Shown piece by piece: positions 19,535 to 51,475 of a stretch of 64,000 nt of DNA (position 1 is the stretch's first letter; each line of letters opens with the position of its first letter). Under the pieces are notes generated by a model. That model did no database searches and was not told the origin of the DNA. It worked only from the letters and a program-made list of their open reading frames with translations. The position numbers and the translations under genes were made by a program. This DNA is from a virus, in the IMG/VR virus record IMGVR_UViG_3300028666_000022, positions 275,899 to 339,898 of that record, one strand, 5' to 3'.

Positions 19535-19897
19535 ATGAAAGTTTTAATCAATTTAATTATTGAAAATTTAACAGATGACTTATTAAAAAATAAATATAAG
19601 TCATCTGTTAATAAAAATAAATTTACTGGACATTGTTATGTTGCTACAGAAACATTATATCACTTACTTGATGATAATGAGAAAAAAAATTATATACCAG
19701 CAATATTAAAAATTAATAATGATACCCATTGGTTTTTAAAAAATAAAATAACTGGTGAAATATTTGATATAACAAAAAATCAATTTAATTATAGTTTAGA
19801 TTATAGTAAATCAATAAATAAAGCTTTTTTAACAAAAAATCCATCAAAAAGAACATTAATATTAATAAATAGAATATATGAAAAAATTAATTTATAA
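19535..19897 (+). CDS. hypothetical protein with possible Cys-His-Asp active site
   Basis: A 120-residue protein from ATG at 19535. GHCYVATETLYHLL (Cys34), THWFLKN (His65) and EIFDITKNQF (Asp78) match a pattern seen in many unrelated phages (GHCYVASEALYHLL, HW, D-x-T). The order C-H-D is that of papain-like folds, so a hydrolase is conceivable. The function is unproven. It overlaps the next gene by 20 nt. Confidence 0.6.
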   Translation: MKVLINLIIENLTDDLLKNKYKSSVNKNKFTGHCYVATETLYHLLDDNEKKNYIPAILKINNDTHWFLKNKITGEIFDITKNQFNYSLDYSKSINKAFLTKNPSKRTLILINRIYEKINL

Positions 19898-35317: not shown

Positions 35318-38300
35318 TTACACTTCTAAGTCTTCTATATCCTCAAAATTAACATCTTGTACTTCATTGATGGTTTGTACTTTATTTATGCTTTCACCTT
35401 GTTTTAACATATCATCTATTTCATTAATCATATTCATTGCATTGGTATTTAGTTGAGTGTTTTTACTATCATTCTCTTTAATTATCTTCTTATGTTTAAC
35501 TTCTTTTTTCAGTTCTTTTCCATAAACAAGATTTTCTATTTGCTTATTATATTCTTCTTCAGTTAAAACAGCTTTCTTATTTACAAATCCTTCACCTTCT
35601 ACTGGTGGTAATTCTGATGGTGTTTGAAATGGTTGCCCTTCTTGTGGTTTTGGTGTTTCATTAGGATTTTGAGCATCACCTGCAGGAGCATTAGAAGGAT
35701 TGTTTGAACCACCTTGAGTAGTTTCACCACTTTGAGGTGTATTTCCTCCTAATGGTAATCCTTCTACTGGTTCTCCATATCTTTTATCTATATCTGTAAA
35801 TAAACCAGATTTTTTGATTATAACAGGAGAATCTTGAAGCTCTTGTATTATAACCCTTTCCATCTTCTGTTGCTTTAAGTCCTCTACAATTTCTCTATCA
35901 CTCATATTAAATATTTGACGTTTAGCTGTTGTATGTGACATTGGGGCAATACCATTTTCACTTCGAGTTAATTCACCATAGGTTTGTGCTTTTTCTCGCA
36001 TTAATTCTGATTTTAACAATTCCTGTTGTGTTGATGGATTTGTTAATGTTAATGTGAAATCTTTTAAATCATCTCCAGAATATCCTAATAAATATAGGTG
36101 TATCATAGCCATTTTATTCAGTTCTTGAATCATGGCCTGTTGAATGCGGTTCACTTTTTTTGAAAACCTTATATCAAATTGTGCTAAATTCTTACCACCT
36201 CCTGCAGCATCTTGAAATGAGAGGAACGGTTTTGGAATTCCAAGCCCGATCATTAAATTATCACGTAGATATTCTATATCATGGATGGAATCGAGATTAC
36301 TATTTTTAGTGAATATACCACAAGATAAAGCAAAATTATGATAATTATGATATTTTTCATTACCATCAATTGTTATTGTACCAGTGTCTTGTTTTTCTGA
36401 AAGATATTCAATTGATACTATTTTATGATTAAAATTTTTTTCTGTTATAAAACTTACAATTCTTTTTTTAATGTCAAACTTACAATAATTCCAATAATCT
36501 TTAATATTATTAAAATATATTAAATTATTAGGGTTACAATTTTTTATATCTAAATTTAGAAAATGAACTATATTTTTATCTTTTTTTGTTTTATCATTTA
36601 AATATTCAATAAAATTATTATAATTACTAGATTCAAAATCAATATATAATTGATCATAAAATTGATTTATTTTGCTTGAAAAATATTTTATAATTTCTTC
36701 GGAAAATTCATGTTTTATTAGAAAACCTTCATTATATAATTCATTTGAAATAATTTCCTCAAACCTAAATTGATGACATTTATTATGAAGAGGAATTAAA
36801 TTTTCTTTCATAAATGAATCTTCAATCTTTTCAAAAAGTTTTGAAGCTAATATATGGTGAACATCTAAATTTTTATTTTCTTTTTTTTCAAAACAAAACT
36901 GACAAATATTATTACAATCATTTCTAACTTCATTGAATATTTCTTGGTGTTTTTTATAATATCTTCTGTTTTTTCTAAAATTTGAAATATTGTTTTTATT
37001 AGTAAAATAATATTCTTTTTTACAAGTAAGGGAACAAAAGTTTTGATTTCTTCCATTTGATGGTTTATTAATTTCTTTTCCACAATTTTTACATTGTATT
37101 ATTATTCTTTCTAATTTTATCTTACTATTATAATAACAATCAATAGAGCAATATTTTCTTTTTATTTTTTTATTAAATTTCTTATTACAATACTCACATG
37201 TTTGTGAAATATTAATTATTCCTTTATAATTATAAATTTTATTACCATTATAATATAATGATCTTTTTTTAGAATAACATTCTCTTGAACATAGTGTTTG
37301 TTTATTAAAATATGAATAAGACCTATTATCACTAATAATATTTTCACAACAAGAACACTTTTTTAAAAAAGTTATACTATTTAAACCTCTTTTTTTAAAT
37401 TTAAAATTTTTTAATATTAAATTAAAATCAACATATTTATTTTCTTTATGATCATAAACATATTGTGTTTTATTATCAATAATCTTATTAAATGCCCACA
37501 TAGATTCACCAACACTTAAATCTTTAGCTTCTTTAGTACCATTGAATTTAGTAGGAAATTTATGATCGGGGGTACATGTAATTGATTCACCATTATCTAA
37601 TGTTAGTTTCAATACATCAGTATTTTTTCTAGTTACTCCTGCCCATGAAATAATTCCGGGTACAATTTCACCTGTTTCTGGATTTATTGAATATGACCAT
37701 AATTCTTTACCTTCTTCATATTCTTTAATTATTTCATTTAAAGCCAAACTCCTACCATCTAATAAATCTATTTTTGTATCTAAAGCAAGACAAGCACCCG
37801 GTAAAGTATCAATACCTGTTTGAGTATTTGCATTTCTTACTGGTAAAAAATAATCTTCATCATTCCCCAATAAATTAAAACGGTAATCAATTTGTCCATC
37901 GTTTGGTGCTACTTGTGCAGTTTTTTTGAATTTAGTAGCAACTTTATATATGTAATTCTCAATATCATCTTCGTCTATGTTTCCAACATCAATCTTAAAT
38001 ACTTTTTTCTCACCAGCACGAACAATACGATATGTTAACATAGCATCTTCTGCCATAATTAATTCTCGGAAAACCCTTCTACATTTATTTAGTACGCTAT
38101 TTCCGTAAGGCAAAAATTTATCGTCACCTAAAAGTCTAAAGTGTGCAATTTCAAAGGTATTAAATTCATCACCAGTCATTCTCTCTTTAAATCTAACTGT
38201 TGGTTTTCCATTTTGTATTCTTTCGAACCTTTCTATTTCATAATTTACTAATTGTTTTACATGTGTAATTCCTTTTTTTCTTTCTCCATAAATTAAAACA

Positions 38301-38806
38301 AAATTATCACCATATTTAATCGTGTTGCGTGTCCAAAAAGGTAAGTTAACGTTCACATTAACAATGTCATAGAAAAATTCTTCTAACAAATATTTAATCC
38401 TTTCTTTATTAGAATATATATTTAACATTTTACCATTGAGGCCAATTGTGGTGGCTTCCTCCATAAATAAATCTAATGCACTTGCAATAAGAGGGTAATA
38501 TTCCATTCCTTCATAGTCCATATAGGCCGGTAGGCGAGCTGCTTCATATTGCAATGCCTTTTGAAAACCTCTATCAGTAGTTCGAAAAAATTTATTTTGA
38601 AGTTCTTTTTTTTGTTCTATTTCCAGACCTTTTCTATGAATTTCTTCAGGAGAATTGCCTTTAATTATGATTCTACTTTCTTTAGATGGGGTACTACCAA
38701 CAGGAGATGTTGGAGAAGGCATTTGTTCATTATAACCAAAACCATCGGCATTAAATAATTGGGTTAAGTTCTGATATACTGTTAATTTATTTTCTTTCTC
38801 AGCCAT
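35318..38806 (-). CDS. 20: portal protein, gp20-like, interrupted by an intein
   Basis: A 1162-residue precursor; residues 339-835 are an intein, so the mature portal is about 665 residues (T4 gp20 is 524, and this one has an extended Pro/Gln/Gly-rich C-terminus). T4-type features: FWTRNTIKYGDNFVLIY, RFRLLGDD-like HFRLLGDDKFLPYGNSVL, EDAMLTYRIVRAGEKKVFKI, then TLPGA joined to SNLDSIHDIEYLRDNL (T4: TLPGG-x-N-L). It forms the dodecameric DNA gate of the head. A late-type box is 24 nt upstream and a terminator follows. Confidence 0.9.
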   Translation of the reverse strand: MAEKENKLTVYQNLTQLFNADGFGYNEQMPSPTSPVGSTPSKESRIIIKGNSPEEIHRKGLEIEQKKELQNKFFRTTDRGFQKALQYEAARLPAYMDYEGMEYYPLIASALDLFMEEATTIGLNGKMLNIYSNKERIKYLLEEFFYDIVNVNVNLPFWTRNTIKYGDNFVLIYGERKKGITHVKQLVNYEIERFERIQNGKPTVRFKERMTGDEFNTFEIAHFRLLGDDKFLPYGNSVLNKCRRVFRELIMAEDAMLTYRIVRAGEKKVFKIDVGNIDEDDIENYIYKVATKFKKTAQVAPNDGQIDYRFNLLGNDEDYFLPVRNANTQTGIDTLPGACLALDTKIDLLDGRSLALNEIIKEYEEGKELWSYSINPETGEIVPGIISWAGVTRKNTDVLKLTLDNGESITCTPDHKFPTKFNGTKEAKDLSVGESMWAFNKIIDNKTQYVYDHKENKYVDFNLILKNFKFKKRGLNSITFLKKCSCCENIISDNRSYSYFNKQTLCSRECYSKKRSLYYNGNKIYNYKGIINISQTCEYCNKKFNKKIKRKYCSIDCYYNSKIKLERIIIQCKNCGKEINKPSNGRNQNFCSLTCKKEYYFTNKNNISNFRKNRRYYKKHQEIFNEVRNDCNNICQFCFEKKENKNLDVHHILASKLFEKIEDSFMKENLIPLHNKCHQFRFEEIISNELYNEGFLIKHEFSEEIIKYFSSKINQFYDQLYIDFESSNYNNFIEYLNDKTKKDKNIVHFLNLDIKNCNPNNLIYFNNIKDYWNYCKFDIKKRIVSFITEKNFNHKIVSIEYLSEKQDTGTITIDGNEKYHNYHNFALSCGIFTKNSNLDSIHDIEYLRDNLMIGLGIPKPFLSFQDAAGGGKNLAQFDIRFSKKVNRIQQAMIQELNKMAMIHLYLLGYSGDDLKDFTLTLTNPSTQQELLKSELMREKAQTYGELTRSENGIAPMSHTTAKRQIFNMSDREIVEDLKQQKMERVIIQELQDSPVIIKKSGLFTDIDKRYGEPVEGLPLGGNTPQSGETTQGGSNNPSNAPAGDAQNPNETPKPQEGQPFQTPSELPPVEGEGFVNKKAVLTEEEYNKQIENLVYGKELKKEVKHKKIIKENDSKNTQLNTNAMNMINEIDDMLKQGESINKVQTINEVQDVNFEDIEDLEV
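36302..37792 (-). mobile_element. intein (497 residues, HNH plus zinc-ribbon type) in the portal
   Basis: It starts at Cys339 (CLALDTKIDLLDGRSLA) and ends at Asn835 (CGIFTKN) before extein Ser. Flanks rejoin to TLPGASNLDSIHD. The endonuclease region is not LAGLIDADG: it has three Cys-pair zinc ribbons (CSCCEN...CSREC, CEYCNK...CSIDC, CKNCGK...CSLTC) and an HNH core (CQFCFEKK, NLDVHHILASKLFEK, LIPLHNKCHQ). The penultimate residue is Lys instead of His. Confidence 0.85.
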
Positions 38807-38839: not shown

Positions 38840-38889
38840 AAAATTTTTGTCAAAAATCAATACTTTTATAATAAATACAATAAATAAAA

Positions 38890-38915
38890 AAACCACTAAA
38901 ATTAATTAGTGGTTT
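38890..38915 (-). terminator. terminator after the 38943-40526 gene
   Basis: AAACCACTA (38890-38898) pairs with TAGTGGTTT (38907-38915). It has the same loop core (AAATTAAT) as the hairpin at 49923. On the minus strand it is followed by a T-run. Confidence 0.7.
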
Positions 38916-38942
38916 AGTATTAAAGAATTCATGATTAAATAA

Positions 38943-40526
38943 TTATGTTGATTTAAACACAAATTTCATATCACCACAATCATAAAGTTTGTTGTAACCC
39001 AAATCTTTCATAATTTCATCTGTGGTTTTATTTTCATTTGGTTTTTGTTTACTTAAAATAAATTCATTAATATTATGCTTATTATAACTTATATAAGTAT
39101 GTCTATCTACAAAATAAAAATTAGGTTCTGTATTTTCAATAATTTTAAATCCTAATTCTTCATATAATTTACCATTATAATATCTCCTATCCACAAATGT
39201 TATAATTTCATTCGGATTATAATTACTGATAAAATATTCAAGTAGTTTATTTGCTCCACCAATAATTATTGTATTTAATTTATTACTAAATCTCAATAAT
39301 TCATAATTATTACCAGCTATTTTATTGAAACTCATAATCGAAACTAATTCATCATTACAAAATAATCCAATTTTAATCTCAGAATTTATTTTGCCAAGAA
39401 AATGATTATTTTCTAAAAAATCTAAATACAAACCATCATCAATTTCTTTTATAAGAATATCATTTGTTTTATTATTTGTATCAATGTTATAATCAAAAAT
39501 ATTTAAACTTTCCATTAATATTGATTCAATTATTTCATTTTTCATTATCCATTCATTTTCAAATATTTGTATTAGATGAATATTTTGTTCATTACTTAAA
39601 TTCGTTTTATTTGAATGATAATGAATGTCTTTGAATTTATCCGAATGCCAATAAATTCCATTGAATTCAACTCCAACTCTATTACTTTCAACATAAATAT
39701 CAATTTCTTGAGTGCCAATCTTAATTTTCTTGGTTTTAAGACCTAATTCATTTTCAATGAATTCACGTATTTCAATTTCCTTTATTGAGGAATTTTTATT
39801 TATCGGATAACATATTGTACAAATATTATCAATTTTAACATTAGTTCTGCCATATACATTATCTTTTTTAATTATAAATTCATTATGAACAGGACAATAA
39901 TTTTTTATTTTCACATAAACATCATCAATAATTTCAATATTTTCTTTAGAAATATTCAATTTTTTAGCAAATGAATTTAACGTGGTATTATTATGTCGAG
40001 TATTCATTATTTTTTTAAAATCATCACTATAACAATATTGAGTAACACCAAATTTTTTTAAATTAGTTTTTATTTTTTTGTCTAAAATAATCTTAGATTT
40101 AGATGGATTATCTACACCGTATTTTAATAAACAAGTTTCTTTTGATTTATCTCTAATTGCTTTAGATTGCATTGTATATGGTACACCATAATTCTTTAAT
40201 GAGGTTTTTATTTTCTTTTCTTTAATTAAAGAACTACCACTAATACATTTATTACAACAAAAATCCAAATATTTATTTAATTGATTATAAAATTTTACAT
40301 CATTATTACAATTTTCGTTTTTACATTTTGGTTGTATTGTAATATTATAAATATAATTATATAACTTTTGTCGCCAAATAAAATCATTATTCGGAAAATA
40401 TTTTTCATTATATTCGGTAATTACTAAAAATTCATTAGGTAAATATTTCTTAAATGTTAATTCTCTTGTTTTTTGACCCATAGAATTATCAATACTTAAA
40501 TAAGCAATTAGTTCTTCTCTATTCAT
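38943..40526 (-). CDS. Vsr-like endonuclease with C-terminal Mom/GNAT-like domain
   Basis: A 527-residue protein. The N-terminus has a Cys-rich ribbon (PKCKNENCNND...FCCNKC), then KTSLKNYGVPYTMQSKAIRD and KETCLLKYGVDNPSKSK, both typical of phage mobile nucleases. The middle has a Vsr/PD-(D/E)XK core (QEIDIYVESNRVGVEFNGIY, WHSDK). The C-terminus (about 360-500) is the same Mom/GNAT-like domain as in the 19878 gene (ELLRFSNKLNTIIIGGANKL, IITFVDRRYYNGKLYEELGF). It is a free-standing homing-type element upstream of the portal. Confidence 0.75.
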   Translation of the reverse strand: MNREELIAYLSIDNSMGQKTRELTFKKYLPNEFLVITEYNEKYFPNNDFIWRQKLYNYIYNITIQPKCKNENCNNDVKFYNQLNKYLDFCCNKCISGSSLIKEKKIKTSLKNYGVPYTMQSKAIRDKSKETCLLKYGVDNPSKSKIILDKKIKTNLKKFGVTQYCYSDDFKKIMNTRHNNTTLNSFAKKLNISKENIEIIDDVYVKIKNYCPVHNEFIIKKDNVYGRTNVKIDNICTICYPINKNSSIKEIEIREFIENELGLKTKKIKIGTQEIDIYVESNRVGVEFNGIYWHSDKFKDIHYHSNKTNLSNEQNIHLIQIFENEWIMKNEIIESILMESLNIFDYNIDTNNKTNDILIKEIDDGLYLDFLENNHFLGKINSEIKIGLFCNDELVSIMSFNKIAGNNYELLRFSNKLNTIIIGGANKLLEYFISNYNPNEIITFVDRRYYNGKLYEELGFKIIENTEPNFYFVDRHTYISYNKHNINEFILSKQKPNENKTTDEIMKDLGYNKLYDCGDMKFVFKST

Positions 40527-40577
40527 TTCTAAAATAAATTATTGTATACAAAAATATAAATAATTTTTCGAATATGC

Positions 40578-40607
40578 TTGGTTTTTAAATTTTTTATCAT
40601 ATCTTTG
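40578..40607 (+). promoter_or_regulatory. early-type promoter (best match)
   Basis: TTG (40578-40580), exactly 19-nt spacer, TATCTTTG (40600-40607). This is a textbook Bacteroidetes promoter, 24 nt before the ATG at 40632, opening the second early run. Confidence 0.7.
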
Positions 40608-40631
40608 TTCCTAAATTTAGAACATGATATT

Positions 40632-41162
40632 ATGGAAAAGAAAACAAATTTGAAAGAAATTATCGAATATATATTAGAAAAATTAAATAAATCTAATTAT
40701 ATTGATCCTGCAGAACATCTATATGATGCAATAAAAGGAATTAGTAGACATTTAAATGATGATAATCTGAATGATTATATACATGATTTTTTATGGGGAT
40801 TGGAATCAGATACTGTTATTGATATTGATGGTATAGTTAAAGAATGTTCTGATTTATTACGAAAATTTTATGTAATGAAAACAACTAAAAATAAACAACC
40901 ATCAAAAGTAGAACGAAGCGAGATTTATTATAAAATACTCGCTATTATTAAGAAACTAAAATTAGTTGAAACAGACAGTGATGATTATGATCATCCAAGT
41001 ATTGCTTGTGAATTAGAAAAATTATTTATTTCTGAAAAAAATTTAAATAATTTTGAATCATTTAAAGATCATATGCTTTCTGCGAGAGCTACATTATATC
41101 CAGATAAAACATATGAAGAAGTTGTTGCTCTTTTAGATACAATGAAAAACCCTTTTAATTAA
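40632..41162 (+). CDS. hypothetical early protein
   Basis: A 176-residue protein from the ATG at 40632 (MEKKTNLKEIIEYILEKLNK). The longer frame from 40578 would start within the promoter and is rejected. It is helical, with an acidic middle. No family is recognised. Confidence 0.6.
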   Translation: MEKKTNLKEIIEYILEKLNKSNYIDPAEHLYDAIKGISRHLNDDNLNDYIHDFLWGLESDTVIDIDGIVKECSDLLRKFYVMKTTKNKQPSKVERSEIYYKILAIIKKLKLVETDSDDYDHPSIACELEKLFISEKNLNNFESFKDHMLSARATLYPDKTYEEVVALLDTMKNPFN

Positions 41163-41170
41163 TATTTATT

Positions 41171-41308
41171 ATGAAAAACATTACTGATGATCAGAAAGAA
41201 ATATTAATTACTTTTATTAAATGGTATTGGAAGGAAGTTGAAGGTAAACCCTATGATATTAATTCAGAAGAAGTTGTGAATTATTTTATTGATGATGTAA
41301 TTAATTGA
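41171..41308 (+). CDS. small hypothetical protein (45 residues)
   Basis: ATG at 41171 in the context TTTATTATG, TGA at 41306-41308. The product begins MKNITDDQKEILITFIKWYW and is acidic at its end. It is 5 bp before the next ATG. Confidence 0.5.
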   Translation: MKNITDDQKEILITFIKWYWKEVEGKPYDINSEEVVNYFIDDVIN

Positions 41309-41312
41309 TATT

Positions 41313-41621
41313 ATGATAACAAAAGAAGAATATTTAATAGCAAAACATATTGTTCAAGAATATGAAAAAGAAATTAAAAATCATTCAATTGGTGTTATTT
41401 CTTTAGATGCTGAAGATTTTATGCTTTGGAAAGAAGATATAAAATTATTTGGTGATGGTTTGGAAACTAGAAAAAGATTTAAGATTGGTAATATTACATA
41501 TTTTTGTATTTCAAATCTTAATGATTTATGTTCAGTAAGATTTGATGAAGTTATTGAAACAAATTATGCTAAAGAGAATGAAATCTATGAAGATATTAAA
41601 ACATATATTAACATAAATTAA
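41313..41621 (+). CDS. hypothetical early protein
   Basis: A 102-residue alpha/beta protein starting MITKEEYLIAKHIVQEYEKE. It is 6 bp before the nucleotidyltransferase gene. No family is recognised. Confidence 0.55.
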   Translation: MITKEEYLIAKHIVQEYEKEIKNHSIGVISLDAEDFMLWKEDIKLFGDGLETRKRFKIGNITYFCISNLNDLCSVRFDEVIETNYAKENEIYEDIKTYININ

Positions 41622-41627
41622 AAGTGA

Positions 41628-42305
41628 ATGAACATAATTATAAATAAAGAAGAAAGAGATTACTTAGAAAAATCAGTCTTAAGAAGATTTACTATTGGAT
41701 CACAATTATATGGAACAAACAATTCAGAATCAGATACTGATATTCTTTCAATTTATGAAACATCTGAATTAGAATTAATGTCAGGTTTACCTAATTTTCA
41801 TCAATTTCAGTGGAAAGATACTGAAAATAATATTGATTGGTTATATACATCAGAATTACAATTTTGGAAAAACTTTTATTCTGGTGATTCGATCATAAAT
41901 GCTGATATTGTTTTATTTACTGATTTAATTAAAGATGATTTAAAATTATCATATTGTAGGACATATAAGGTAATTAAAGCATATATTGGATTTGCTAAAA
42001 GAGATTTGAAACATATTAATAAAGATAAAAGTAAATTATTTCATGCTAATAGAGGATTATATTGTGCTCAAGAACTTTTAGAAGGAAGATTACCATTATT
42101 ATCAGAAATACAAAAATTAGCTTTAAAAGATGGTTATTTCCAAGAAAATTTAGGAGATTTAATATATACCGAAAATTTATTAAGAACAAAACTTAATAAA
42201 TTATATGATGATAATAAAATAGTAACATATTATATTGAAAAATGTGGTAATATGCTATTTGATAAAATGTTTGAAGCAAATAATATTAAAGAATTTAAAT
42301 ACTAA
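41628..42305 (+). CDS. RlaP-like nucleotidyltransferase
   Basis: A 225-residue protein with TIGSQLYGTNNSESDTDILS near the N-terminus: Gly24-Ser25 and the Asp36-x-Asp38 pair are the catalytic signature of polymerase-beta-type nucleotidyltransferases. The spacing and SxLYG fit the RlaP family (RNA-ligase-associated). A helical C-terminal domain follows. With the PseT-like and Thg1-like enzymes nearby, an RNA-repair or tRNA-end-modification role is likely, but the substrate is unknown. Confidence 0.75.
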   Translation: MNIIINKEERDYLEKSVLRRFTIGSQLYGTNNSESDTDILSIYETSELELMSGLPNFHQFQWKDTENNIDWLYTSELQFWKNFYSGDSIINADIVLFTDLIKDDLKLSYCRTYKVIKAYIGFAKRDLKHINKDKSKLFHANRGLYCAQELLEGRLPLLSEIQKLALKDGYFQENLGDLIYTENLLRTKLNKLYDDNKIVTYYIEKCGNMLFDKMFEANNIKEFKY

Positions 42306-42493
42306 TGAAAATAAATTACGATATATTATATAATAAATATGTTAAGAATTGTAAAAAGAATCCTAAATCATTTAGTGATTTCATTAGAATATATACTAAA
42401 ATAATTTTTCATCGACAAATAATAAGGCCACAAATAATTTGGTGGCAAGAAACATATAAAATAATGAATACAAAATATTATAAAAATTATTAA
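42305..42493 (+). CDS. small hypothetical basic protein
   Basis: A 62-residue basic protein whose ATG shares a base with the previous stop (TAATG). It contains HRQIIRPQIIWWQETYKIMN. No family is recognised. Confidence 0.45.
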   Translation: MKINYDILYNKYVKNCKKNPKSFSDFIRIYTKIIFHRQIIRPQIIWWQETYKIMNTKYYKNY

Positions 42494-42494
42494 T

Positions 42495-42725
42495 ATGACA
42501 AATGAAAAGATTGAAAGTTTTAAACTCAACGAAGAGGACAACACAATCGAAGTTGTTAAAAGAGTACCTAGTAATAAGATGTATGCTGTTTATCCACCAA
42601 AACCAGCACCAGATTATGTATGGAAAGAAATTTACGGTATTATAGACAATAAGATTCAATTAATCAAAAAAATTGATGGAAAACATATTCCAGCAAAATA
42701 TAATGATGAACAAATTATTTTTTAA
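42495..42725 (+). CDS. small hypothetical protein
   Basis: A 76-residue protein starting MTNEKIESFKLNEEDNTIEV and containing VYPPKPAPDYVWKEIYG. The pattern of a proline-containing loop between strands is seen in several phages, but no function is known. Confidence 0.5.
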   Translation: MTNEKIESFKLNEEDNTIEVVKRVPSNKMYAVYPPKPAPDYVWKEIYGIIDNKIQLIKKIDGKHIPAKYNDEQIIF

Positions 42726-42727
42726 AA

Positions 42728-42761
42728 TTTGTAACAAAATAAAATTATTTACGTAAATATT
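42728..42761 (+). promoter_or_regulatory. early-type promoter variant
   Basis: TTTG (42728-42731), 22-nt spacer starting TAACAAAAT and ending TTACG, then TAAATATT (42754-42761). It is the same element as at 4194, with a weaker -7 box. ATG follows at 42770. Confidence 0.45.
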
Positions 42762-42769
42762 AATCATAT

Positions 42770-43003
42770 ATGGAACAATTAATTTATATAATAAACAATA
42801 GTAATTATGTATTAATTGAATTATTAGTTACTGATAGAAATAAAATTAAATGTGAAAAACTCATAGAAAAATACGAAATAATAGTACAAGGAATGAAAAA
42901 ATTTGATGATGGTGGTTGGTTTGGAGTTAAACACTTAATTTTGAATGTACTTGTGCCAGAAAAAGATATTTTAAATTTTCAAAATGAACTTAATTTATGT
43001 TAA
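42770..43003 (+). CDS. hypothetical early protein
   Basis: A 77-residue alpha/beta protein with its own promoter variant. It contains MKKFDDGGWFGVKHLILNVL. It overlaps the next gene by 7 nt. No family is recognised. Confidence 0.5.
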   Translation: MEQLIYIINNSNYVLIELLVTDRNKIKCEKLIEKYEIIVQGMKKFDDGGWFGVKHLILNVLVPEKDILNFQNELNLC

Positions 43004-43272
43004 ATAGTGAATATTATCCACTACTAAATACAAATAAAACCATTAAAGAATGGTGGAATGATTTAAATTGGGGTGAAAGAGTTGATATAGGTGGTGTTGC
43101 AATTCATTTTACTTTAATGACTGCAAATTATAGATGGAATAGTAATTTTAATTATGAAGATTTAACTAAATCTCAAAAGAAAATAGTTAAAACTATATAT
43201 TCTAATAGAAATAGTAAATGGTCAATGTTTAATTTTGAATATGAAAATATTCTTGGTATGTTAAAATTTTAA
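42997..43272 (+). CDS. hypothetical early protein
   Basis: A 91-residue protein rich in Trp and Asn, including KEWWNDLNWGERVDIGG. It overlaps the previous gene by 7 nt and is 15 bp before the pseT-like gene. No family is recognised. Confidence 0.5.
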   Translation: MLNSEYYPLLNTNKTIKEWWNDLNWGERVDIGGVAIHFTLMTANYRWNSNFNYEDLTKSQKKIVKTIYSNRNSKWSMFNFEYENILGMLKF

Positions 43273-43287
43273 TTTAAGTAAATTATT

Positions 43288-44127
43288 ATGTTAAAAGTAA
43301 TATTACTAAAAGGATTGCCGGGTAGTGGAAAATCAACATTTGCCAGAGAATTGATTTCTAAATATCCAAATTCATATAAACGTATAAATAAGGATGATTT
43401 AAGATCGATGTTAGATAATGGTAAACATTCTGATGATAGTGAAAAATTTATTAATCAAGTTCGAGATGCTTTAATTCTAATGGCTTTAGAAAAAGGAAAA
43501 CATGTAATTGTTGATGATACTAATCTTGCTCCAAAACATGAGGAAAGAATAAAGCAATTGATAAAAGGTAAAGCTGAATTAGAAATAAAAGATTTTACTG
43601 ACGTTCCTTTAGAGACGTGTATTAAAAATGATTTAAAACGAGTAGCTAGTGTTGGTGAAAAGGTAATTCGTGATATGTACAAGCAATTTATATTAAAAAC
43701 TGAAACATATAGTGAAAACCCTGATTTAACTAAAGCAATTATTGTTGATATTGATGGAACATTAGCAAAAATGAAAGATAGATCTCCTTTTGATTGGAGT
43801 AAGGTTAAAGAAGATAGTTGCAATGAAACTATTAAGAAAATAGTAAATAATTATAGTGAAACCGTAATTATTGTTTCAGGTAGGGATGGTATTTGTAAAG
43901 AAGATACGATCGAATGGCTTAAAACTAATGACATTAAATTCAATCATATATTAATGAGAGATGTTGGCAACAATGAAAAAGATAGTATTATTAAACGTAG
44001 ATTATTTGACGAAAATATCAGAGGTAAATATTTTATTGAGTATGTACTAGATGATAGAAATCAAGTAGTTGAGATGTGGAGGAATATGGGATTAACATGT
44101 CTCCAAGTTAATGAAGGAAATTTTTAA
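43288..44127 (+). CDS. pseT: polynucleotide 5'-kinase / 3'-phosphatase (PseT-like)
   Basis: A 279-residue protein aligned along its length with T4 PseT. Kinase domain: Walker A GLPGSGKST (residues 9-17), INKDDLR and VIVDDTNL. HAD phosphatase domain: IIVDIDGTLAKM (Asp154, Asp156), IVVSGR-like VIIVSGRDG and DDRNQVVEMWRNMGLTCLQV, almost the T4 ending. It repairs cut RNA or DNA ends by making 5'-phosphate and 3'-hydroxyl. No RNA ligase was seen in the window. Confidence 0.92.
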   Translation: MLKVILLKGLPGSGKSTFARELISKYPNSYKRINKDDLRSMLDNGKHSDDSEKFINQVRDALILMALEKGKHVIVDDTNLAPKHEERIKQLIKGKAELEIKDFTDVPLETCIKNDLKRVASVGEKVIRDMYKQFILKTETYSENPDLTKAIIVDIDGTLAKMKDRSPFDWSKVKEDSCNETIKKIVNNYSETVIIVSGRDGICKEDTIEWLKTNDIKFNHILMRDVGNNEKDSIIKRRLFDENIRGKYFIEYVLDDRNQVVEMWRNMGLTCLQVNEGNF

Positions 44128-44139
44128 TGAAAATATATT

Positions 44140-44688
44140 ATGAAAAATTATTTTACTGCAGATTTACACATTGGGCATCATAATATTATTAGTTATGATG
44201 GAAGACCTTTTAATACTATTGTAGAACACGATCAAACAATTGTTAATAACTGGAATAGCATTGTAAAAAAAGAAGATAATGTTTATTTTCTTGGTGATTT
44301 CTCTTTGGGTTACAAGAAAGCTAAAGATTATGATAAATCTATTATGTTATCCTTAAATGGAAATAAATTTTTCATAAAAGGTAATCATGATCACGATCAA
44401 ACTGTGAAGTCGTATAAAGAAACTGGAACATATTTAGGTCAACTAGCTGAAATTAATATTGATGGTCAAATAATAACTTTATGTCATTACGCAATGTTAG
44501 TTTGGAATAAATCACATAGGGGAGCATGGCAACTACATGGACACTCACACCATTCTTTACCAATAGATAATACTTCTTTGAGATTAGATGTTGGAATTAA
44601 TGGTACTAATTACTTTCCACTTTCTTTTCAAGAAATTAGAGAAATTTTAAAAAAGAGAGAATATAAACCCATTGATGATCATCAATAA
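44140..44688 (+). CDS. calcineurin-like metallophosphoesterase
   Basis: A 182-residue protein with the five family blocks: ADLHIGH (DxH), FLGDFS (GD), IKGNHDHD (GNHD), LCHYA (H) and LHGHSHH (GHxH). It is close to YfcE-type and phage phosphoesterases. It lies 12 bp after pseT and might remove cyclic or terminal phosphates during RNA repair; that link is inferred only from position. Confidence 0.85.
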   Translation: MKNYFTADLHIGHHNIISYDGRPFNTIVEHDQTIVNNWNSIVKKEDNVYFLGDFSLGYKKAKDYDKSIMLSLNGNKFFIKGNHDHDQTVKSYKETGTYLGQLAEINIDGQIITLCHYAMLVWNKSHRGAWQLHGHSHHSLPIDNTSLRLDVGINGTNYFPLSFQEIREILKKREYKPIDDHQ

Positions 44689-44702
44689 AACACAATAATA
44701 TC

Positions 44703-44936
44703 ATGGAAAAAGTATATGAATTCAAATATAATTATAGTTGTTGTGAAAGTGCTGCATATACAATTAGTATACATAAAACTAGAAAGGGTGCTGAAATGGC
44801 AATGGAATTTCATAAAAATGAAACAAAAATAAATTGGTTAAAAGATAAAATTAAAAACTTAAATGAATTTAATGATGAATATCCTTGGGATTTTGATATG
44901 TCTTGGGGAATAAAAGAAACTGAATTACTTGATTAA
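44703..44936 (+). CDS. hypothetical early protein
   Basis: A 77-residue protein, MEKVYEFKYNYSCCESAAYT then a helix rich in Lys/Glu and an acidic end. The pattern of strand plus KGAEMAMEFHKNE helix resembles small proteins common in T4-like genomes. No function is known. Confidence 0.55.
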   Translation: MEKVYEFKYNYSCCESAAYTISIHKTRKGAEMAMEFHKNETKINWLKDKIKNLNEFNDEYPWDFDMSWGIKETELLD

Positions 44937-44948
44937 TGATAAAATATT

Positions 44949-45257
44949 ATGGAAATAAATATTTATGGTTTAAAATGTGACTATTGTGATTATAGGGATG
45001 ATAGTGTTAAATTTTCTGAATACGAAGAAAATATTGGAAAACCATGTCCTAATTGCGGTAATAATTTACTAACTGAAAAAGAATATAAAACTTGTTTAAG
45101 ATTTTATAAATTCGTGGATATTTGTAATGTACTTAATAATATATTTAAGTGGATCAATCCTTTTCATTATTGGAGATTAATTTTTGGTGATAATAGAGAA
45201 GAAAATAAATTAACTATGAAATTTAAAAATCGTAAAATAGTAGATCATGAACAATAA
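44949..45257 (+). CDS. zinc-ribbon protein
   Basis: A 102-residue protein. CDYCDYRDDSVKF and CPNCGNNLLTEKE form a four-Cys zinc ribbon at the N-terminus. The C-terminus has a Trp/Phe-rich segment (IFKWINPFHYWRLIFG) and a basic tail. It overlaps the next gene by 11 nt. It is probably a small nucleic-acid- or protein-binding factor. Confidence 0.65.
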   Translation: MEINIYGLKCDYCDYRDDSVKFSEYEENIGKPCPNCGNNLLTEKEYKTCLRFYKFVDICNVLNNIFKWINPFHYWRLIFGDNREENKLTMKFKNRKIVDHEQ

Positions 45258-45528
45258 TATCTATAATAAAATAATAGATTTAATTTTTCATTCAGTAATT
45301 TCTGAAGGTGGTGATGGAGATGCTGTTTGGTTATCCAAACATACTTCAATAACAGAATTATTTGAGTTAATCAATACATATAATTTGAAAAATAATACTG
45401 GTTGGGATATAATTAAACATGAAAATTATTTAGAATGGGGTATAGATCAAGAATTTGTTCTCATAACTAATGATATAGAATTTTTTGATTCTCAACCAAG
45501 TTGGATAACAATGATAATTAATTATTAA
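45247..45528 (+). CDS. hypothetical early protein
   Basis: A 93-residue protein starting inside the end of the previous gene (MNNNIYNKIIDLIFHSVISE). It contains GGDGDAVWLSKHTSI. No family is recognised. Confidence 0.5.
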   Translation: MNNNIYNKIIDLIFHSVISEGGDGDAVWLSKHTSITELFELINTYNLKNNTGWDIIKHENYLEWGIDQEFVLITNDIEFFDSQPSWITMIINY

Positions 45529-45541
45529 TAATTCAAAAATT

Positions 45542-45709
45542 ATGAAAAATTTATTTATTAATGATGAGTATTGTGAATGGAAATGTTGTGATTTTGGAAC
45601 TATGGGATTTCATGACTATGAATATGTAACAACTTGTGGTATGAATTATGATTGTGATAAAACAAAAAAAGAAAATTTTTGTCCAAATTGTGGTGGGAAA
45701 ATAAAATAA
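45542..45709 (+). CDS. small zinc-ribbon protein (55 residues)
   Basis: ATG at 45542, TAA at 45707-45709. The N-terminal Cys pairs (YCEWKCCDFG) and the terminal FCPNCGGKIK form a probable zinc ribbon. Confidence 0.6.
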   Translation: MKNLFINDEYCEWKCCDFGTMGFHDYEYVTTCGMNYDCDKTKKENFCPNCGGKIK

Positions 45710-45723
45710 TAATTTTTGAAATT

Positions 45724-45912
45724 ATGATAAAATATCCAAGAATAAGTAAACTTATGGTTTTACATTCTGCAGCAGGTTATTATGTTGGTAGGTTATATGA
45801 ATATTCTGAAGATGAATGTGGACCATATTCAAGAGAAAGTACTTATTTTAAAACTGAAAAGGCAGCCATAAAAGCATTAGCAAATAACGATTATGTTGAA
45901 AATTTTAATTAA
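45724..45912 (+). CDS. hypothetical early protein
   Basis: A 62-residue protein from the ATG in AAATTATG (MIKYPRISKLMVLHSAAGYY). The longer frame from 45679 overlaps the zinc-ribbon gene and is rejected. It contains VGRLYEYSEDECGPYSRES, a pattern I recall in small T4-like hypothetical proteins. Confidence 0.55.
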   Translation: MIKYPRISKLMVLHSAAGYYVGRLYEYSEDECGPYSRESTYFKTEKAAIKALANNDYVENFN

Positions 45913-45920
45913 AATTTATT

Positions 45921-46178
45921 ATGAAAATATATGCAAATTTTAGGCAAGAAGTAAATGTAAGTCCAAAAGAGTTTATTGAAGAACTGATTAATTTTGAAAT
46001 TGGTTGGAGAAGTTGGATTTTTATGAAAGACGATAAATATTATGTTGGTTCTGAAGAAAGTGCGGGTTGTCATTCATTTGATAGTAAAGAAGAAATTTCA
46101 AAAGAAAAGTATGAATATGTAGAATCATTGAAAAACGTATTAAAATATCTTGAATTAAATAATAAAATATATAAATAA
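45921..46178 (+). CDS. hypothetical early protein
   Basis: An 85-residue alpha/beta protein starting MKIYANFRQEVNVSPKEFIE. It is 1 bp before the Thg1-like gene. No family is recognised. Confidence 0.5.
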   Translation: MKIYANFRQEVNVSPKEFIEELINFEIGWRSWIFMKDDKYYVGSEESAGCHSFDSKEEISKEKYEYVESLKNVLKYLELNNKIYK

Positions 46179-46179
46179 T

Positions 46180-47091
46180 ATGGAATTTGAAAACCTAGGT
46201 GATTATTGTAAATTCTTAGAAAAGAATTTCTCATTAGAAATAATGATACCCACATTACCTGTTATCATTCGCCTTGACGGTAATAATTTTCATAATTACA
46301 CTAAGGGTTTAAATCGACCATTTGATGAAAACCTAACCGATTTAATGGTTAATACAGTAAAATATTTAGTACAGGAAACAAATGCAGTAATTGGATATAC
46401 TCAGTCTGATGAAATTACATTGATATTATATTCAGATGATAGAAAATCATCAATTTATAATGATGGTAAAAAGCAAAAAATATTATCTAAACTAACAGGT
46501 AAATGTGTTTTATATTTTAATGAAAGAAGTAAGTATTATCTACCTGAACATAATAAAGTAGCTAATTTTGATTGTAGAATATATCAAACACCTACATTAC
46601 AAGATGCTTGTGCTCAATTATTGTGGAGAGAAAATAATGCAACACGAAATTCTATATTAATGTTGGCAGATTCTTTATTTGGACACACAAAATGTTTTAA
46701 ACTTAAAACAAATGAGTTACAAGATAAGATGATGTTAGAAAAACTTATAAATTGGAATGATTTAGAAACAAAATTTAAACGAGGAACTTATGTTAAACGT
46801 ATTAAAACATCTAAACCATTTAGTAAAGAAGAATTAAGTACTTTACCTAAGAATCATAATGCACATAAAAATCCTGATCTTATTATAGAAAGAAATGTTA
46901 TTTCTGTTGTAGAATTACCTATTTTTAGTAAAATAACTAATAAAGTGGACGTTGTGTTTCATAATGCTGAACCAAAATTAGATTCAAATAGTATTGATTT
47001 TAGCAACATGAAAGAATTAACCGAAAATGAAACTGAAATTTTAAATAAAACGTATAAAAGATTACTTAGTGATAAACCAACTAAATTATAA
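46180..47091 (+). CDS. Thg1-like protein (3'-5' RNA polymerase / tRNA-His guanylyltransferase family)
   Basis: A 303-residue protein. IIRLDGNNFHNYTKGLNRPF (Asp33) and GYTQSDEITLIL (Asp77, Glu78) are the metal-binding palm motifs of Thg1/TLP enzymes, with the expected spacing to human Thg1 Asp29, Asp76 and Glu77. KLTGKCVLYFNE and FDCRIYQTP (FD-R motif) also match. Bacterial and phage TLPs add nucleotides in 3'-to-5' direction to repair tRNA 5' ends. It lies in the same run as PseT- and RlaP-like enzymes. Confidence 0.88.
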   Translation: MEFENLGDYCKFLEKNFSLEIMIPTLPVIIRLDGNNFHNYTKGLNRPFDENLTDLMVNTVKYLVQETNAVIGYTQSDEITLILYSDDRKSSIYNDGKKQKILSKLTGKCVLYFNERSKYYLPEHNKVANFDCRIYQTPTLQDACAQLLWRENNATRNSILMLADSLFGHTKCFKLKTNELQDKMMLEKLINWNDLETKFKRGTYVKRIKTSKPFSKEELSTLPKNHNAHKNPDLIIERNVISVVELPIFSKITNKVDVVFHNAEPKLDSNSIDFSNMKELTENETEILNKTYKRLLSDKPTKL

Positions 47092-47096
47092 ATAAT

Positions 47097-47546
47097 ATGT
47101 ATCCAAATAAATGTTTTTATGTTATAAATGGATTTCTTCCGCCACATGAAGGAAATGTAATGGGAGGATATGGATTTTCAATTGGTTTGAAAGTTGAATT
47201 TGCTAAAAAATGTTTAAATTATAAAATTACTAATAAAAATATAGAAAATTTAAATAATTATGGTTTAGAACGAATAAATAGAATATTTGGTCATGAAGAT
47301 AGAAAACCATTTTATTTTCATGATGTTGATGACGAATGGACAATCTTATTAAGATGGGTGCAAGTTCCCGGTAATGCTTGTGACTTGGGTGATGGTGGTT
47401 TAGAACCTAAAGATATTTTGAAAATGAATGACGATGATTTCATTGAATTTGAACCACATAATGTCGATAGTATGAAACAAGCATATGCATTATTGTCGTT
47501 ATGGTTAAAATGGTATGATTGTGCATTTTCTTTTGTAATTGATTAA
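47097..47546 (+). CDS. hypothetical early protein
   Basis: A 149-residue protein starting MYPNKCFYVINGFLPPHEGN, 5 bp after the Thg1-like gene. It contains a Gly-rich stretch VMGGYGFSIGLK and LLRWVQVPGNACDLGDGGLE. No family is recognised. Confidence 0.55.
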   Translation: MYPNKCFYVINGFLPPHEGNVMGGYGFSIGLKVEFAKKCLNYKITNKNIENLNNYGLERINRIFGHEDRKPFYFHDVDDEWTILLRWVQVPGNACDLGDGGLEPKDILKMNDDDFIEFEPHNVDSMKQAYALLSLWLKWYDCAFSFVID

Positions 47547-47548
47547 TT

Positions 47549-47596
47549 ATGGAAAATTTTATAAAAAAACATTTGGGAATAAATACACCACAATGA
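47549..47596 (+). CDS. possible micro-ORF (15 residues)
   Basis: ATG at 47549 opens MENFIKKHLGINTPQ then TGA. It has an ATTATG start context like real genes, so it may be a short leader peptide or the broken start of the next gene. Confidence 0.2.
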   Translation: MENFIKKHLGINTPQ

Positions 47597-47617
47597 GTAA
47601 TAGATAATTGTAAAAAA

Positions 47618-47803
47618 ATGTTAAATGAATGGAATGATATGAAATATTTTCATGATAAATATTGGAAATGCCCACATTGTGAATCAATATTTAAAGAATT
47701 TGAAGCAATAATGGATATGAATAGTACTGAAAGATGTCCAAAATGTAATACTGCACTTGGTGGTTGTCCAGATTATTGTCCCGATAACAATGAAACTGAA
47801 TAA
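47618..47803 (+). CDS. zinc-ribbon protein
   Basis: A 61-residue protein. CPHCESIFKEF and RCPKCNTALGGCPDYC form a four-Cys zinc ribbon with extra Cys. It is the last gene of the second early run; the convergent terminase gene ends 31 bp further on with no strong hairpin between. Confidence 0.55.
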   Translation: MLNEWNDMKYFHDKYWKCPHCESIFKEFEAIMDMNSTERCPKCNTALGGCPDYCPDNNETE

Positions 47804-47833
47804 AATTAATGGTTTCATATTATGTCCAGATTA

Positions 47834-49876
47834 TTAACTCCCTTTTAATCCTTTAAATAACCATGAATTAGCTATATATGGATTTAATGATGAATTACTA
47901 TTAGGTGAAATCATTGGCCTGTTCTTAACATCACTTTTTTTACCAATTTCATCAATATCGTTTATTGTTAATATTGCGTTTAACATTTTTTCAGTTACCC
48001 CTTTACTTTCTTTATATTTTTTCATGTCAAAATTAAGTACATAAAGACCAATAGATAGACCCATGATTGAATCATCATGAAAGCTACGTTTATGATCTGC
48101 AACACGATTTCCAGCAACAGTAATGAATGTTTTTAACTCATTTAATAATCTTATTGATCTAATTACAACATTATCTAAATTTATTGAACTTTGTAATTCA
48201 AGAAGCACAGAAGCTCTATTATTCCCAATAAAAAATCCCGGAATTAAATCAACAATACTTATATTACCATCTCCCATTGCTTTTCTTCCTGTTTTAATAT
48301 AACCACTTAACCTATCTCTGGTTGGTTTATGATTAATTTCAGCATAATGAATATTTTCATAACCAATTTCAATTAGCTTTTCAACTGTTTGTGCTCCAAG
48401 ACCTCCTGTTACATCAATAACAGCATAAGCATCATTATATGTTTTTCCATAGTGATATGCAACCTCGGCCAACATTTGTGGTGTTAATTTTCCATAATAT
48501 TCTGCAACTTGTTCGGTCTTATGTCTCTTTTGTTTGAATTTTTTTACTTTTCCATTTATTGTTTTTACTTTATCCTCAATAATTTCAATTGTTTTTAAAA
48601 TATTTATTGTCGAACTATCTTCTCCATGTCCTGATGATACATCAATCGACATTATATATTCTTCACCCTGTTGTGGATCTTCCCATATCCACATGTTTTT
48701 ATCTAAATACTCTTGTCTTATTGGTGTTTTCACCTCATTTTCTTGTATCCTTTTTAGAAATTCTTCTGAAATAAAATTATCTCCTGAACCCAAAAACGAA
48801 CAAAGCACCTCCTGCGCAATAACCTTCATGTTACCGTTAGCATCACGAACTTGTTCTTCAAACCAAGGTGAGCTAGCTTCCCACCCGTCATCCATTAGTT
48901 TTATTCTATGTTCTTTTGTCCAATTCTCATCAACAAATTTTATTTCATTTTGTTTACCTTTATTTTTTAACCAACATAATTCTTTATTATAGCGAGGATC
49001 ATTAAACCACCATAATTCAACCGCCTTAAAATTATTTTCACCTTTTCTAGCACCATCAAAAGTCTTATAGAATACGGGATCTAATGAATTTGGGGTTGAA
49101 ACCATAATTGCACTACCACCAGTATTTAATGTTGGTTTTGCTGATGTCCAAAACTTATCGTTTTTGTCAACCCATGCTACCTCGTCCCAGAACAATAAAG
49201 TTGGCGAATACCCACGAAGTCCTTTAGATGAAAAGGCTCCAAGAGTTGAACCATTATCATATCTTTTTAATTTTTGAGTATCTTTATATTTTTCGTTTGT
49301 TTCTTTTCCAGTTTTTGGCCTTAACCATTCTGGACAACCATCAATAAAATTAACTACATCATTCATTACTTCATCACGTGCAGTATCAAGTTTATCTGCA
49401 ACAATTGCAACACTTCTGTTTTTATTGAACATAACATACCAAGAAATGAATCCTGAAGTACACGTTGAAATTCCTGCTTGTCTATATTTGTTTGCAACAA
49501 CAAACCTATTATCTAAGTATGTATTAATTAATTCTTTTTGAAAATCAAATAATTTAAATGGAACAATAAGACCAGCAGTTCCTTGAGTTTGATCAAAAAT
49601 AGTTAAATAGGTTTCAATAAAATATATTGGATTAGTAGCACAACGAATTATTTCATCCATTTGTTCAGAAATATTTAATTCGCTCGCTCTTTTTGTTACA
49701 CCATTTTTAGTAACAATAATAGCTTCAATTTTTCTTGATTTTTTTCTAGCTTCTTCAGCTAATCTTCTGGCTTCTTCTTTTTCTCGTTCTTTTTGAGCAT
49801 TATGGGGTACAACTGGAATATGTTCAGGAAATAATGATTCATTATCTTCGTCATCTAATATGTTTTTTTTAGCCAT
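47834..49876 (-). CDS. 17: terminase large subunit, gp17-like
   Basis: A 680-residue protein. ATPase: Walker A-type NKYRQAGIST (residues about 129-138) and Walker B LLFWDEVAWV (Asp231, Glu232). RNase H-type nuclease: SIDVSSGHGEDSS (Asp412), AVIDVTGG (Asp488, where T4 has Glu) and HDDSIMGLSI (Asp601/602). Order and spacing match T4 gp17 (610 residues), with a longer charged N-terminus. It packages DNA through the portal. A late-type box lies 22 nt upstream. Confidence 0.92.
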   Translation of the reverse strand: MAKKNILDDEDNESLFPEHIPVVPHNAQKEREKEEARRLAEEARKKSRKIEAIIVTKNGVTKRASELNISEQMDEIIRCATNPIYFIETYLTIFDQTQGTAGLIVPFKLFDFQKELINTYLDNRFVVANKYRQAGISTCTSGFISWYVMFNKNRSVAIVADKLDTARDEVMNDVVNFIDGCPEWLRPKTGKETNEKYKDTQKLKRYDNGSTLGAFSSKGLRGYSPTLLFWDEVAWVDKNDKFWTSAKPTLNTGGSAIMVSTPNSLDPVFYKTFDGARKGENNFKAVELWWFNDPRYNKELCWLKNKGKQNEIKFVDENWTKEHRIKLMDDGWEASSPWFEEQVRDANGNMKVIAQEVLCSFLGSGDNFISEEFLKRIQENEVKTPIRQEYLDKNMWIWEDPQQGEEYIMSIDVSSGHGEDSSTINILKTIEIIEDKVKTINGKVKKFKQKRHKTEQVAEYYGKLTPQMLAEVAYHYGKTYNDAYAVIDVTGGLGAQTVEKLIEIGYENIHYAEINHKPTRDRLSGYIKTGRKAMGDGNISIVDLIPGFFIGNNRASVLLELQSSINLDNVVIRSIRLLNELKTFITVAGNRVADHKRSFHDDSIMGLSIGLYVLNFDMKKYKESKGVTEKMLNAILTINDIDEIGKKSDVKNRPMISPNSNSSLNPYIANSWLFKGLKGS

Positions 49877-50567: not shown

Positions 50568-50720
50568 TTAGCGTAATTCATCAAGAAACATAAAATCAAA
50601 CTCTATATTATATGTATTTAATAATGTATTAGTTAATTCTAACCATAAAGTTTCATTAATATGTTTTATTTTAGAAAATTCATTAAATCGTAAATCATTA
50701 TACATTTCAATATTTTTCAT
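50568..50720 (-). CDS. micro-protein E of the tandem cassette (50 residues)
   Basis: ATG at 50720, TAA at 50568-50570. It begins MKNIEMYNDLRFNEFSKIKH and ends FDFMFLDELR. It shares the MKNIE start and Leu/Glu-rich helical body with the other four small genes. Its start overlaps the stop of the previous gene (ATGA). Confidence 0.55.
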   Translation of the reverse strand: MKNIEMYNDLRFNEFSKIKHINETLWLELTNTLLNTYNIEFDFMFLDELR

Positions 50721-50881
50721 AATAATTCATTATTTAATACGCTTAATTCAAAGTCTAATTCATTGCGTAATTCAGTAAATAACATATGATTTATTAAATT
50801 ATATAAAATTAATTCAAAATTATCATCTATATTTAGAAATATGCCAATTTGTAATTCTTTAGTTGTTTCAATATTTTTCAT
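50717..50881 (-). CDS. micro-protein D of the tandem cassette (54 residues)
   Basis: ATG at 50881, TGA at 50717-50719. It begins MKNIETTKELQIGIFLNIDD and ends LRNELDFELSVLNNELL. ATGA overlaps on both sides show it belongs to the operon. Confidence 0.6.
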   Translation of the reverse strand: MKNIETTKELQIGIFLNIDDNFELILYNLINHMLFTELRNELDFELSVLNNELL

Positions 50882-51129
50882 AATAATTCGTTAAATAAAT
50901 TTGAATCTATTTCGCCTAATTCGAGATATTTTTCTATATCAATAGTATTTAATATTTCAAAATCTGATAATTCAAATAATATTTTTTTATTAAATTCGCT
51001 AAAAAATTCAAGAAATAATTTTTTATCTAAAATTTTTTCTAAATCATTATTAAACGAATTAAATAAATTATTTCTAATCATAGAAAATAAAATAGGTGAT
51101 ATATCATCATGAAGATCAATATTTTTCAT
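50878..51129 (-). CDS. micro-protein C of the tandem cassette (83 residues)
   Basis: The longest member, beginning MKNIDLHDDISPILFSMIRN and ending YLELGEIDSNLFNELL. The extra length looks like a second helical unit. Its end resembles that of copy D. No function is recognised. Confidence 0.6.
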   Translation of the reverse strand: MKNIDLHDDISPILFSMIRNNLFNSFNNDLEKILDKKLFLEFFSEFNKKILFELSDFEILNTIDIEKYLELGEIDSNLFNELL

Positions 51130-51142
51130 TTAAATTTATTGG

Positions 51143-51304
51143 TTATTTATTATTTAATTCACTATATAAACTTATATCTAAATTTCTCATTTCAAGATAT
51201 ATACTTATATCTCTAAAATCTTGTAATGCTTCACTATATAATTTATTATAAAACATGTCATATAGTTTAGTGTCTAAAACATCTTCTCTTTCAATATTTT
51301 TCAT
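51143..51304 (-). CDS. micro-protein B of the tandem cassette (53 residues)
   Basis: ATG at 51304, TAA at 51143-51145. It begins MKNIEREDVLDTKLYDMFYN and ends LDISLYSELNNK. It is helical and acidic, as in the other copies. Confidence 0.55.
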   Translation of the reverse strand: MKNIEREDVLDTKLYDMFYNKLYSEALQDFRDISIYLEMRNLDISLYSELNNK

Positions 51305-51307
51305 AAA

Positions 51308-51475
51308 TTATATGTCTAAAATATTTCTCAATTCAACACCTAATTCTAAACATAGTTCAGAATGGGATTCAAAAAATATTTTATCGTTTATTTCATCATA
51401 TAAATCATTAGTTAATATATTTCGAAAGGGAGTAATTATTACTTGTTTTGATAATCTATTTAATTCATTTTTCAT
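51308..51475 (-). CDS. micro-protein A of the tandem cassette (55 residues)
   Basis: ATG at 51475, TAA at 51308-51310. It begins MKNELNRLSKQVIITPFRNI and ends LCLELGVELRNILDI. The start codon shares its first base with the stop of the membrane gene upstream. Confidence 0.55.
   Translation of the reverse strand: MKNELNRLSKQVIITPFRNILTNDLYDEINDKIFFESHSELCLELGVELRNILDI

Follow-up and report, generated by a model that had tools for sequence, protein, structure and literature searches.

The DNA examined here, referred to as the window, comprises the last 64 kb of the 339,898-bp virus record G000 (IMGVR_UViG_3300028666_000022), in which an inserted block of genes separates the portal gene (35318-38806, - strand) from the terminase large-subunit gene (47834-49876, - strand) of a jumbo phage. 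The block occupies positions 38880 to 47833, its left edge being approximate, and encodes on the + strand an RlaP-type nucleotidyltransferase of the small pol-beta kind (41628-42305, 225 amino acids (aa); PHROG 388, E=1e-10), a T4 PseT-type polynucleotide 5' kinase / 3' phosphatase (PNKP; 43288-44127, 279 aa; PHROG 505, E=1e-92), a calcineurin-like phosphoesterase (44140-44688, 182 aa; PHROG 547, E=2e-47) and a Thg1-like protein (TLP) of the bacterial type, a predicted 3'-5' polymerase (46180-47091, 303 aa; PF04446, E=1e-25). These four genes had been named as an RNA-repair set at 41628-47091 in an earlier sequence-only reading, and the list of open reading frames (ORFs) together with family searches confirmed all of them on the one strand. 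They are not contiguous, since about ten small ORFs lie between them, none of which gave a family match over the cut-off among those searched; between PNKP and Thg1 there are six small ORFs as well as the calcineurin-like gene. Under a uniform-placement null, the chance of four genes falling within 41628-47091 of the 340-kb record is 1.7e-5, a post hoc value that ignores the general clustering of accessory genes.

The Thg1-like protein is identified by a PF04446 score of 90.4 bits (cut-off 29.2) and by PHROG 4717 (E=5e-67). Its best solved relative is the TLP of Bacillus thuringiensis (BtTLP), retrieved as 4kgk by sequence (E=6e-34) and as 4kgm by fold (E=4e-17), with 121 bits for BtTLP and 36 bits for the second-best match. 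The sequence-only reading had named the placement of the palm residues D33, D77 and E78 as a test, and both alignment and model put them in the expected places: all three are invariant in 14 homologues and match D30, D75 and E76 of BtTLP, and in the structural model (predicted local distance difference test score, pLDDT, 81) D33 follows the strand 25-32, with D77/E78 located where strand 69-75 passes into strand 78-84. In place of the eukaryotic HINNLYN motif the protein has WRENNATRNSI. R46 is found where BtTLP carries K43, a lysine required when ATP, but not when GTP, is used for activation (PMC3701042); this position is conserved without being defining, and other members of the lineage have either K or R.

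PNKP is a full-length enzyme of the T4 type with an N-terminal kinase and a C-terminal HAD phosphatase (HAD_PNKP, E=5e-49). Among its PDB relatives it aligns with T4 Pnkp (1ltq) over the full length (E=2e-39), and the motifs GLPGSGKST, DIDGT and DDRN are intact. Of seven close orthologues of PNKP, five have an RNA ligase gene next to them. The window itself is without a ligase, which had led to the suggestion that one might be encoded elsewhere, and a protein-family search of the full record indeed found a T4 Rnl1-family ligase gene at G000:4785-5906 (373 aa; PF09511, E=4.6e-20, 67.7 bits). The protein matches its family over nearly the full length (PHROG 562, residues 39-366) and keeps the nucleotidyltransferase motifs including KxDGS (EKLDGS). 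If the ends of the record join, as we infer, Rnl1 lies about 22 kb from Thg1 and about 25 kb from PNKP. Its orthologues in the relatives G016 and G020 are 55-57% identical, have the same neighbours including a ribonucleotide reductase-like gene and lie about 18-22 kb from the terminase gene, with which the distance of about 19 kb across the join in G000 agrees. Because neighbours and terminase distance are kept in these orthologues, Rnl1 is probably a vertically inherited gene of the phage group. The further proposal that RlaP takes over part of the function of a ligase is unnecessary, and RlaP as a ligase substitute was rejected, since the record encodes Rnl1. As a separate observation, the ribonucleotide reductase-like gene at L003:6085-9855 is interrupted at about residues 314-711 by an insert that G016 and G020 do not have.

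The RlaP-type protein displays the motif GS..GT..SD.D with residues G24, S25, D36, D38 and D70, and the first four of these are invariant among the orthologues compared. Its AlphaFold model adopts a pol-beta fold, with low template modelling (TM) scores to pol-beta nucleotidyltransferases. An orthologue in the viral contig L133, 44% identical, passes the Pfam RlaP cut-off (28.4 bits against 23). The gene in the window adjoins no ligase; ligase neighbourhoods are found for its orthologues in L133 and in Tenacibaculum phage pT24, where Rnl1 is 1-2 kb away from the RlaP-type gene and a polynucleotide kinase (PNK) gene no more than about 5 kb. In L133 (6176-14653) the orthologue is part of a dense repair island comprising a ligase-like gene that scores below the Pfam cut-off, Phage_30_3 (T4 gp30.3-type), a second nucleotidyltransferase, a PNK kinase, a canonical RlaP, a PHROG 3668 hydrolase, a CCA-type enzyme and a calcineurin-like gene. 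Linkage to Thg1 is seen in the viral contig L132 (4476-6064), where a Thg1 gene overlaps the following RlaP-type nucleotidyltransferase gene by about 10 bp.

The case of the calcineurin-like phosphoesterase is different. The protein has the metal-site motifs while its Pfam score stays below the cut-off, and only one of eight close relatives is encoded near a ligase, so that no consistent linkage to ligase or PNK genes emerges. Two distant homologues are nonetheless members of repair islands, one in Vibrio phage D69 and one in L133. On these neighbourhoods a repair role of the calcineurin-like gene is doubtful, and its inclusion in the repair set by the sequence-only reading is not borne out.

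The position of the block was compared across 71 loci found in a terminase scan. In loci containing both genes, terminase and portal mostly lie side by side, about 90 bp apart, the exceptions being loci with inserts of their own or with split matches; in the window they are 9 kb apart, and the + strand genes of the block were found at the terminase-portal junction in none of the 71 terminase-bearing loci. The block is thus an insertion and, judged from these comparisons, appears to be a recent one rather than an ancestral operon. Near its left edge lies a free-standing homing-endonuclease gene (38943-40526, - strand; PHROG 3339, E=4e-84), homologues of which (44-57%) occupy the same junction in L078, L102 and L103, and for this reason the junction is likely a hot spot of insertion. 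The homing endonuclease may have brought the cargo; in a search for repeats inside the block no terminal duplication was found. That the block is absent at the junction from some 70 relatives and that the record is metagenomic could also mean that two phages were joined during assembly. This is very improbable, as the endonuclease gene at the edge is of the kind seen at the same junction in the three loci just named, the portal gene retains its upstream region at the left edge of the insert, both flanking genes are intact and there is no abrupt shift in guanine-cytosine content. The portal ORF in addition holds an insert of about 430 aa that matches an HNH endonuclease and is probably an intein; relatives match only the two parts flanking it.

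The origin of the Thg1 gene could be traced further. Thirteen viral contigs contain Thg1 homologues that are 66-77% identical, the closest (77%) being that of L008, although several of the contigs with the closest Thg1s (e.g., L011, L016 and L019) carry possibly bacterial genes and may be misclassified pieces of chromosomes. The homologue in L008 is preceded, about 0.6 kb upstream, by a relative of the small protein encoded at 44703-44936 (+ strand) in the block (54% identity over 74 aa). A 372-kb record has a Thg1 that is 73% identical in combination with a terminase that is only about 32% identical, and the Thg1 gene therefore moves between genomes. Stand-alone homologues at 70-74% identity are present in Bacteroidota assemblies (L155-L160), in flanks that seem chromosomal from translations judged by eye (arginine biosynthesis, ribosomal L20, elongation factor G). 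In the tree, the Thg1 of the window and the Bacteroidota chromosomal genes form a clade with support of 100/99, outside which fall the Thg1s of 201phi2-1, Mimasvirus-type phages, D69 and phage G. By this phylogeny the protein is of the Bacteroidota type and belongs to the lineage of the chromosomal genes, not to that of the other jumbo-phage Thg1s. The host of the phage is likely a member of the Bacteroidota.

The record encodes three detected tRNAs, one tRNA-Arg(ACG) and two tRNA-Gly(TCC). A function of Thg1 in adding G-1 to a phage tRNA-His was rejected because no tRNA-His was detected among the three, and 5' editing of the phage tRNAs was rejected as well, since their acceptor stems pair at positions 1-3, with one G-U at 1:72; read from the sequences, the only acceptor-stem mismatch is internal, at 5:68 of one tRNA-Gly. 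As the record lacks a detected tRNA-His and the phage tRNAs have no need of 5' editing at positions 1-3, Thg1 likely acts on tRNAs of the host.

We consider it fairly probable that the block is a horizontally acquired accessory cassette that would provide the jumbo phage with a fuller tRNA repair against host anticodon nucleases, Rnl1 serving as the core ligase. Metal-independent anticodon nucleases leave a 2',3'-cyclic phosphate and a 5'-OH, both of which are healed by PNKP before Rnl1 seals, as known for these families, and the predicted role of RlaP is to put back missing nucleotides ahead of ligation (PMC7824862). TLPs rebuild 5' ends by copying the 3' acceptor strand and prefer 5'-truncated tRNAs of many kinds (PMC6471195, PMC3701042). 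Accordingly arranged, the proposed pathway would begin with cleavage of tRNAs by host anticodon nucleases during infection. PNKP would then take off the 3' or cyclic phosphate and phosphorylate the 5' end, the RlaP-type enzyme may add back nucleotides lost from the 3' end prior to sealing, and the nick would be closed by the phage's own core Rnl1-type ligase. The Thg1-like protein would rebuild 5' ends in the 3'-5' direction, most likely the acceptor-stem 5' ends of host tRNAs, comparable to bacterial TLPs in vitro.

The overlap of the Thg1 and RlaP-type genes in L132 could also be taken to mean that the two enzymes act at the anticodon break itself, where they would refill both sides so that Rnl1 can seal RloC-type lesions that defeat T4. 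RloC removes the wobble nucleotide, RlaP is predicted to restore lost nucleotides (PMC7824862), and TLPs are able to copy from an external RNA template (PMC6471195). An open anticodon loop, however, offers no template, and action at this site is decidedly improbable. Also improbable, and speculative, is the idea that the phage has combined a Bacteroidota-type Thg1 and a small RlaP-type enzyme so that nucleotides are restored on either side of a tRNA break and Rnl1 can then seal it, a combination that would defeat base-excising RloC-like nucleases and of which the overlapping genes of L132 would be the minimal form.

Several observations weigh against the proposed accessory repair cassette. The RlaP-type protein of the window scores 16.3 bits with Pfam RlaP, below the 23-bit cut-off, and its fold also resembles HalB, antibiotic-modifying and other nucleotidyltransferases, so that the fold alone cannot assign an RNA substrate. 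PNKP and the RlaP-type gene were not found, at the sensitivity used, in the relatives G016 (321 kb) and G017 (324 kb), and no CCA-adding enzyme was detected in G000, though both of these relatives have one. Twelve of the 13 close Thg1 homologues are without a repair gene in the flanks searched, some of which are short. A residual chance of mis-assembly also attaches to this metagenomic contig. The expectation that the genes would be co-conserved in relatives has largely failed, since, besides the missing PNKP and RlaP-type genes, the G016 Thg1 belongs to a different lineage (32% identity) and lies some 154 kb away from the terminase, the G017 gene (G017:253499-253770) is a broken Thg1 of the window lineage (79% over its first 57 residues, then interrupted and shortened), and the block as a whole is absent from some 70 relatives.

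These data can also be read as chance neighbourhood within an accessory insert, in which Rnl1 and PNKP would carry out T4-style nick repair while the host-type Thg1 and the calcineurin-like protein would have separate functions, for example in tRNA quality control and in clearing nucleotides. The solitary position of Thg1 in Bacteroidota chromosomes and among most close homologues, the presence in G016 of Rnl1 without PNKP or an RlaP-type gene, and the rarity of ligases near the calcineurin-like gene would all fit such an arrangement. Against it stand the overlapping genes of L132, the location of the G016 Thg1 about 1.3 kb from an Rnl2-type ligase gene and the recurrence of the full set in Vibrio phage D69, where a CCA enzyme, RlaP, Thg1, Rnl1, PNK and a phosphoesterase are encoded within 12 kb; chance neighbourhood is possible but unlikely. 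Mimasvirus-type phages likewise encode RlaP about 3 kb from Thg1. In these neighbourhoods the repair functions come together repeatedly, without forming a fixed operon. The examination of phage Thg1 neighbourhoods proposed in the sequence-only reading thus has a mixed outcome, in that the same functions cluster independently in other phages while nearly all close Thg1 homologues have no repair neighbour in the flanks searched; of its interpretation, the role in RNA repair and a ligase located elsewhere are supported, but not the notion of the four genes as one conserved set.

Other features of the window include the last larger gene of the block (47097-47546), for which no relative was found in the viral contigs searched, and five tandem short ORFs (50-83 aa) at 50568-51475 on the - strand, overlapping or tightly packed, all of which start with MKN and have divergent bodies. 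Positions 12554-15121 encode a UvrD-like helicase that carries both an intein splicing domain and a LAGLIDADG endonuclease, and more endonuclease-type genes are present at 1537-3009 and 19878-21788 (DUF7487/MTES_1575 and GIY-YIG).

Should the cassette work as proposed, it would offer a natural case in which to test whether phages repair tRNAs with missing nucleotides, a question open since the description of repair-defying nucleases such as RloC. A Bacteroidota-type Thg1 would then be used by a phage of likely Bacteroidota hosts and, with the ligase present in the record, the repair kit looks complete. The clean history of insertion would also show tRNA-repair genes joining, as mobile cargo, a ligase that was probably inherited vertically.

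The combination of PNKP, Rnl1, RlaP-type enzyme and TLP has already been described for jumbo phages (PMC7824862; PMC2904730), and what is new is the Thg1 of Bacteroidota type, a small subfamily of RlaP-type proteins with linkage to Thg1, and the history of insertion, rather than the RNA-repair complement itself. The classical counterpart is the pair of T4 Pnkp (PseT) and Rnl1 that counteracts PrrC; the same two enzyme families with intact motifs are present here in one phage, yet their genes differ in history and, if the ends join, are separated by about 25 kb, and RlaP-type and Thg1-like enzymes are added. The jumbo-phage complement of Rnl1, PNK-HAD, RlaP, CCA enzyme and sporadic Thg1, interpreted as counter-defence tRNA repair (Iyer et al. 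2021; PMC7824862), differs from the genes described here in that the latter combine a Thg1 of the Bacteroidota chromosomal lineage with a small divergent RlaP-type subfamily in a terminase-portal insert. At the level of the protein, BtTLP (4kgk, 4kgm) is the best match in sequence and fold and shares the three carboxylates as well as the lack of HINNLYN, but carries the ATP-activation lysine K43 where the phage protein has R46. Bacterial neighbourhoods in which Thg1 is found near a polynucleotide kinase and sometimes an RNA ligase have been reported (PMC2904730), in contrast to the separated PNKP and Thg1 genes of the block. Finally, the island of Vibrio phage D69 encodes the same functions, but with a Thg1 of another lineage (33% identity) and a canonical long RlaP.

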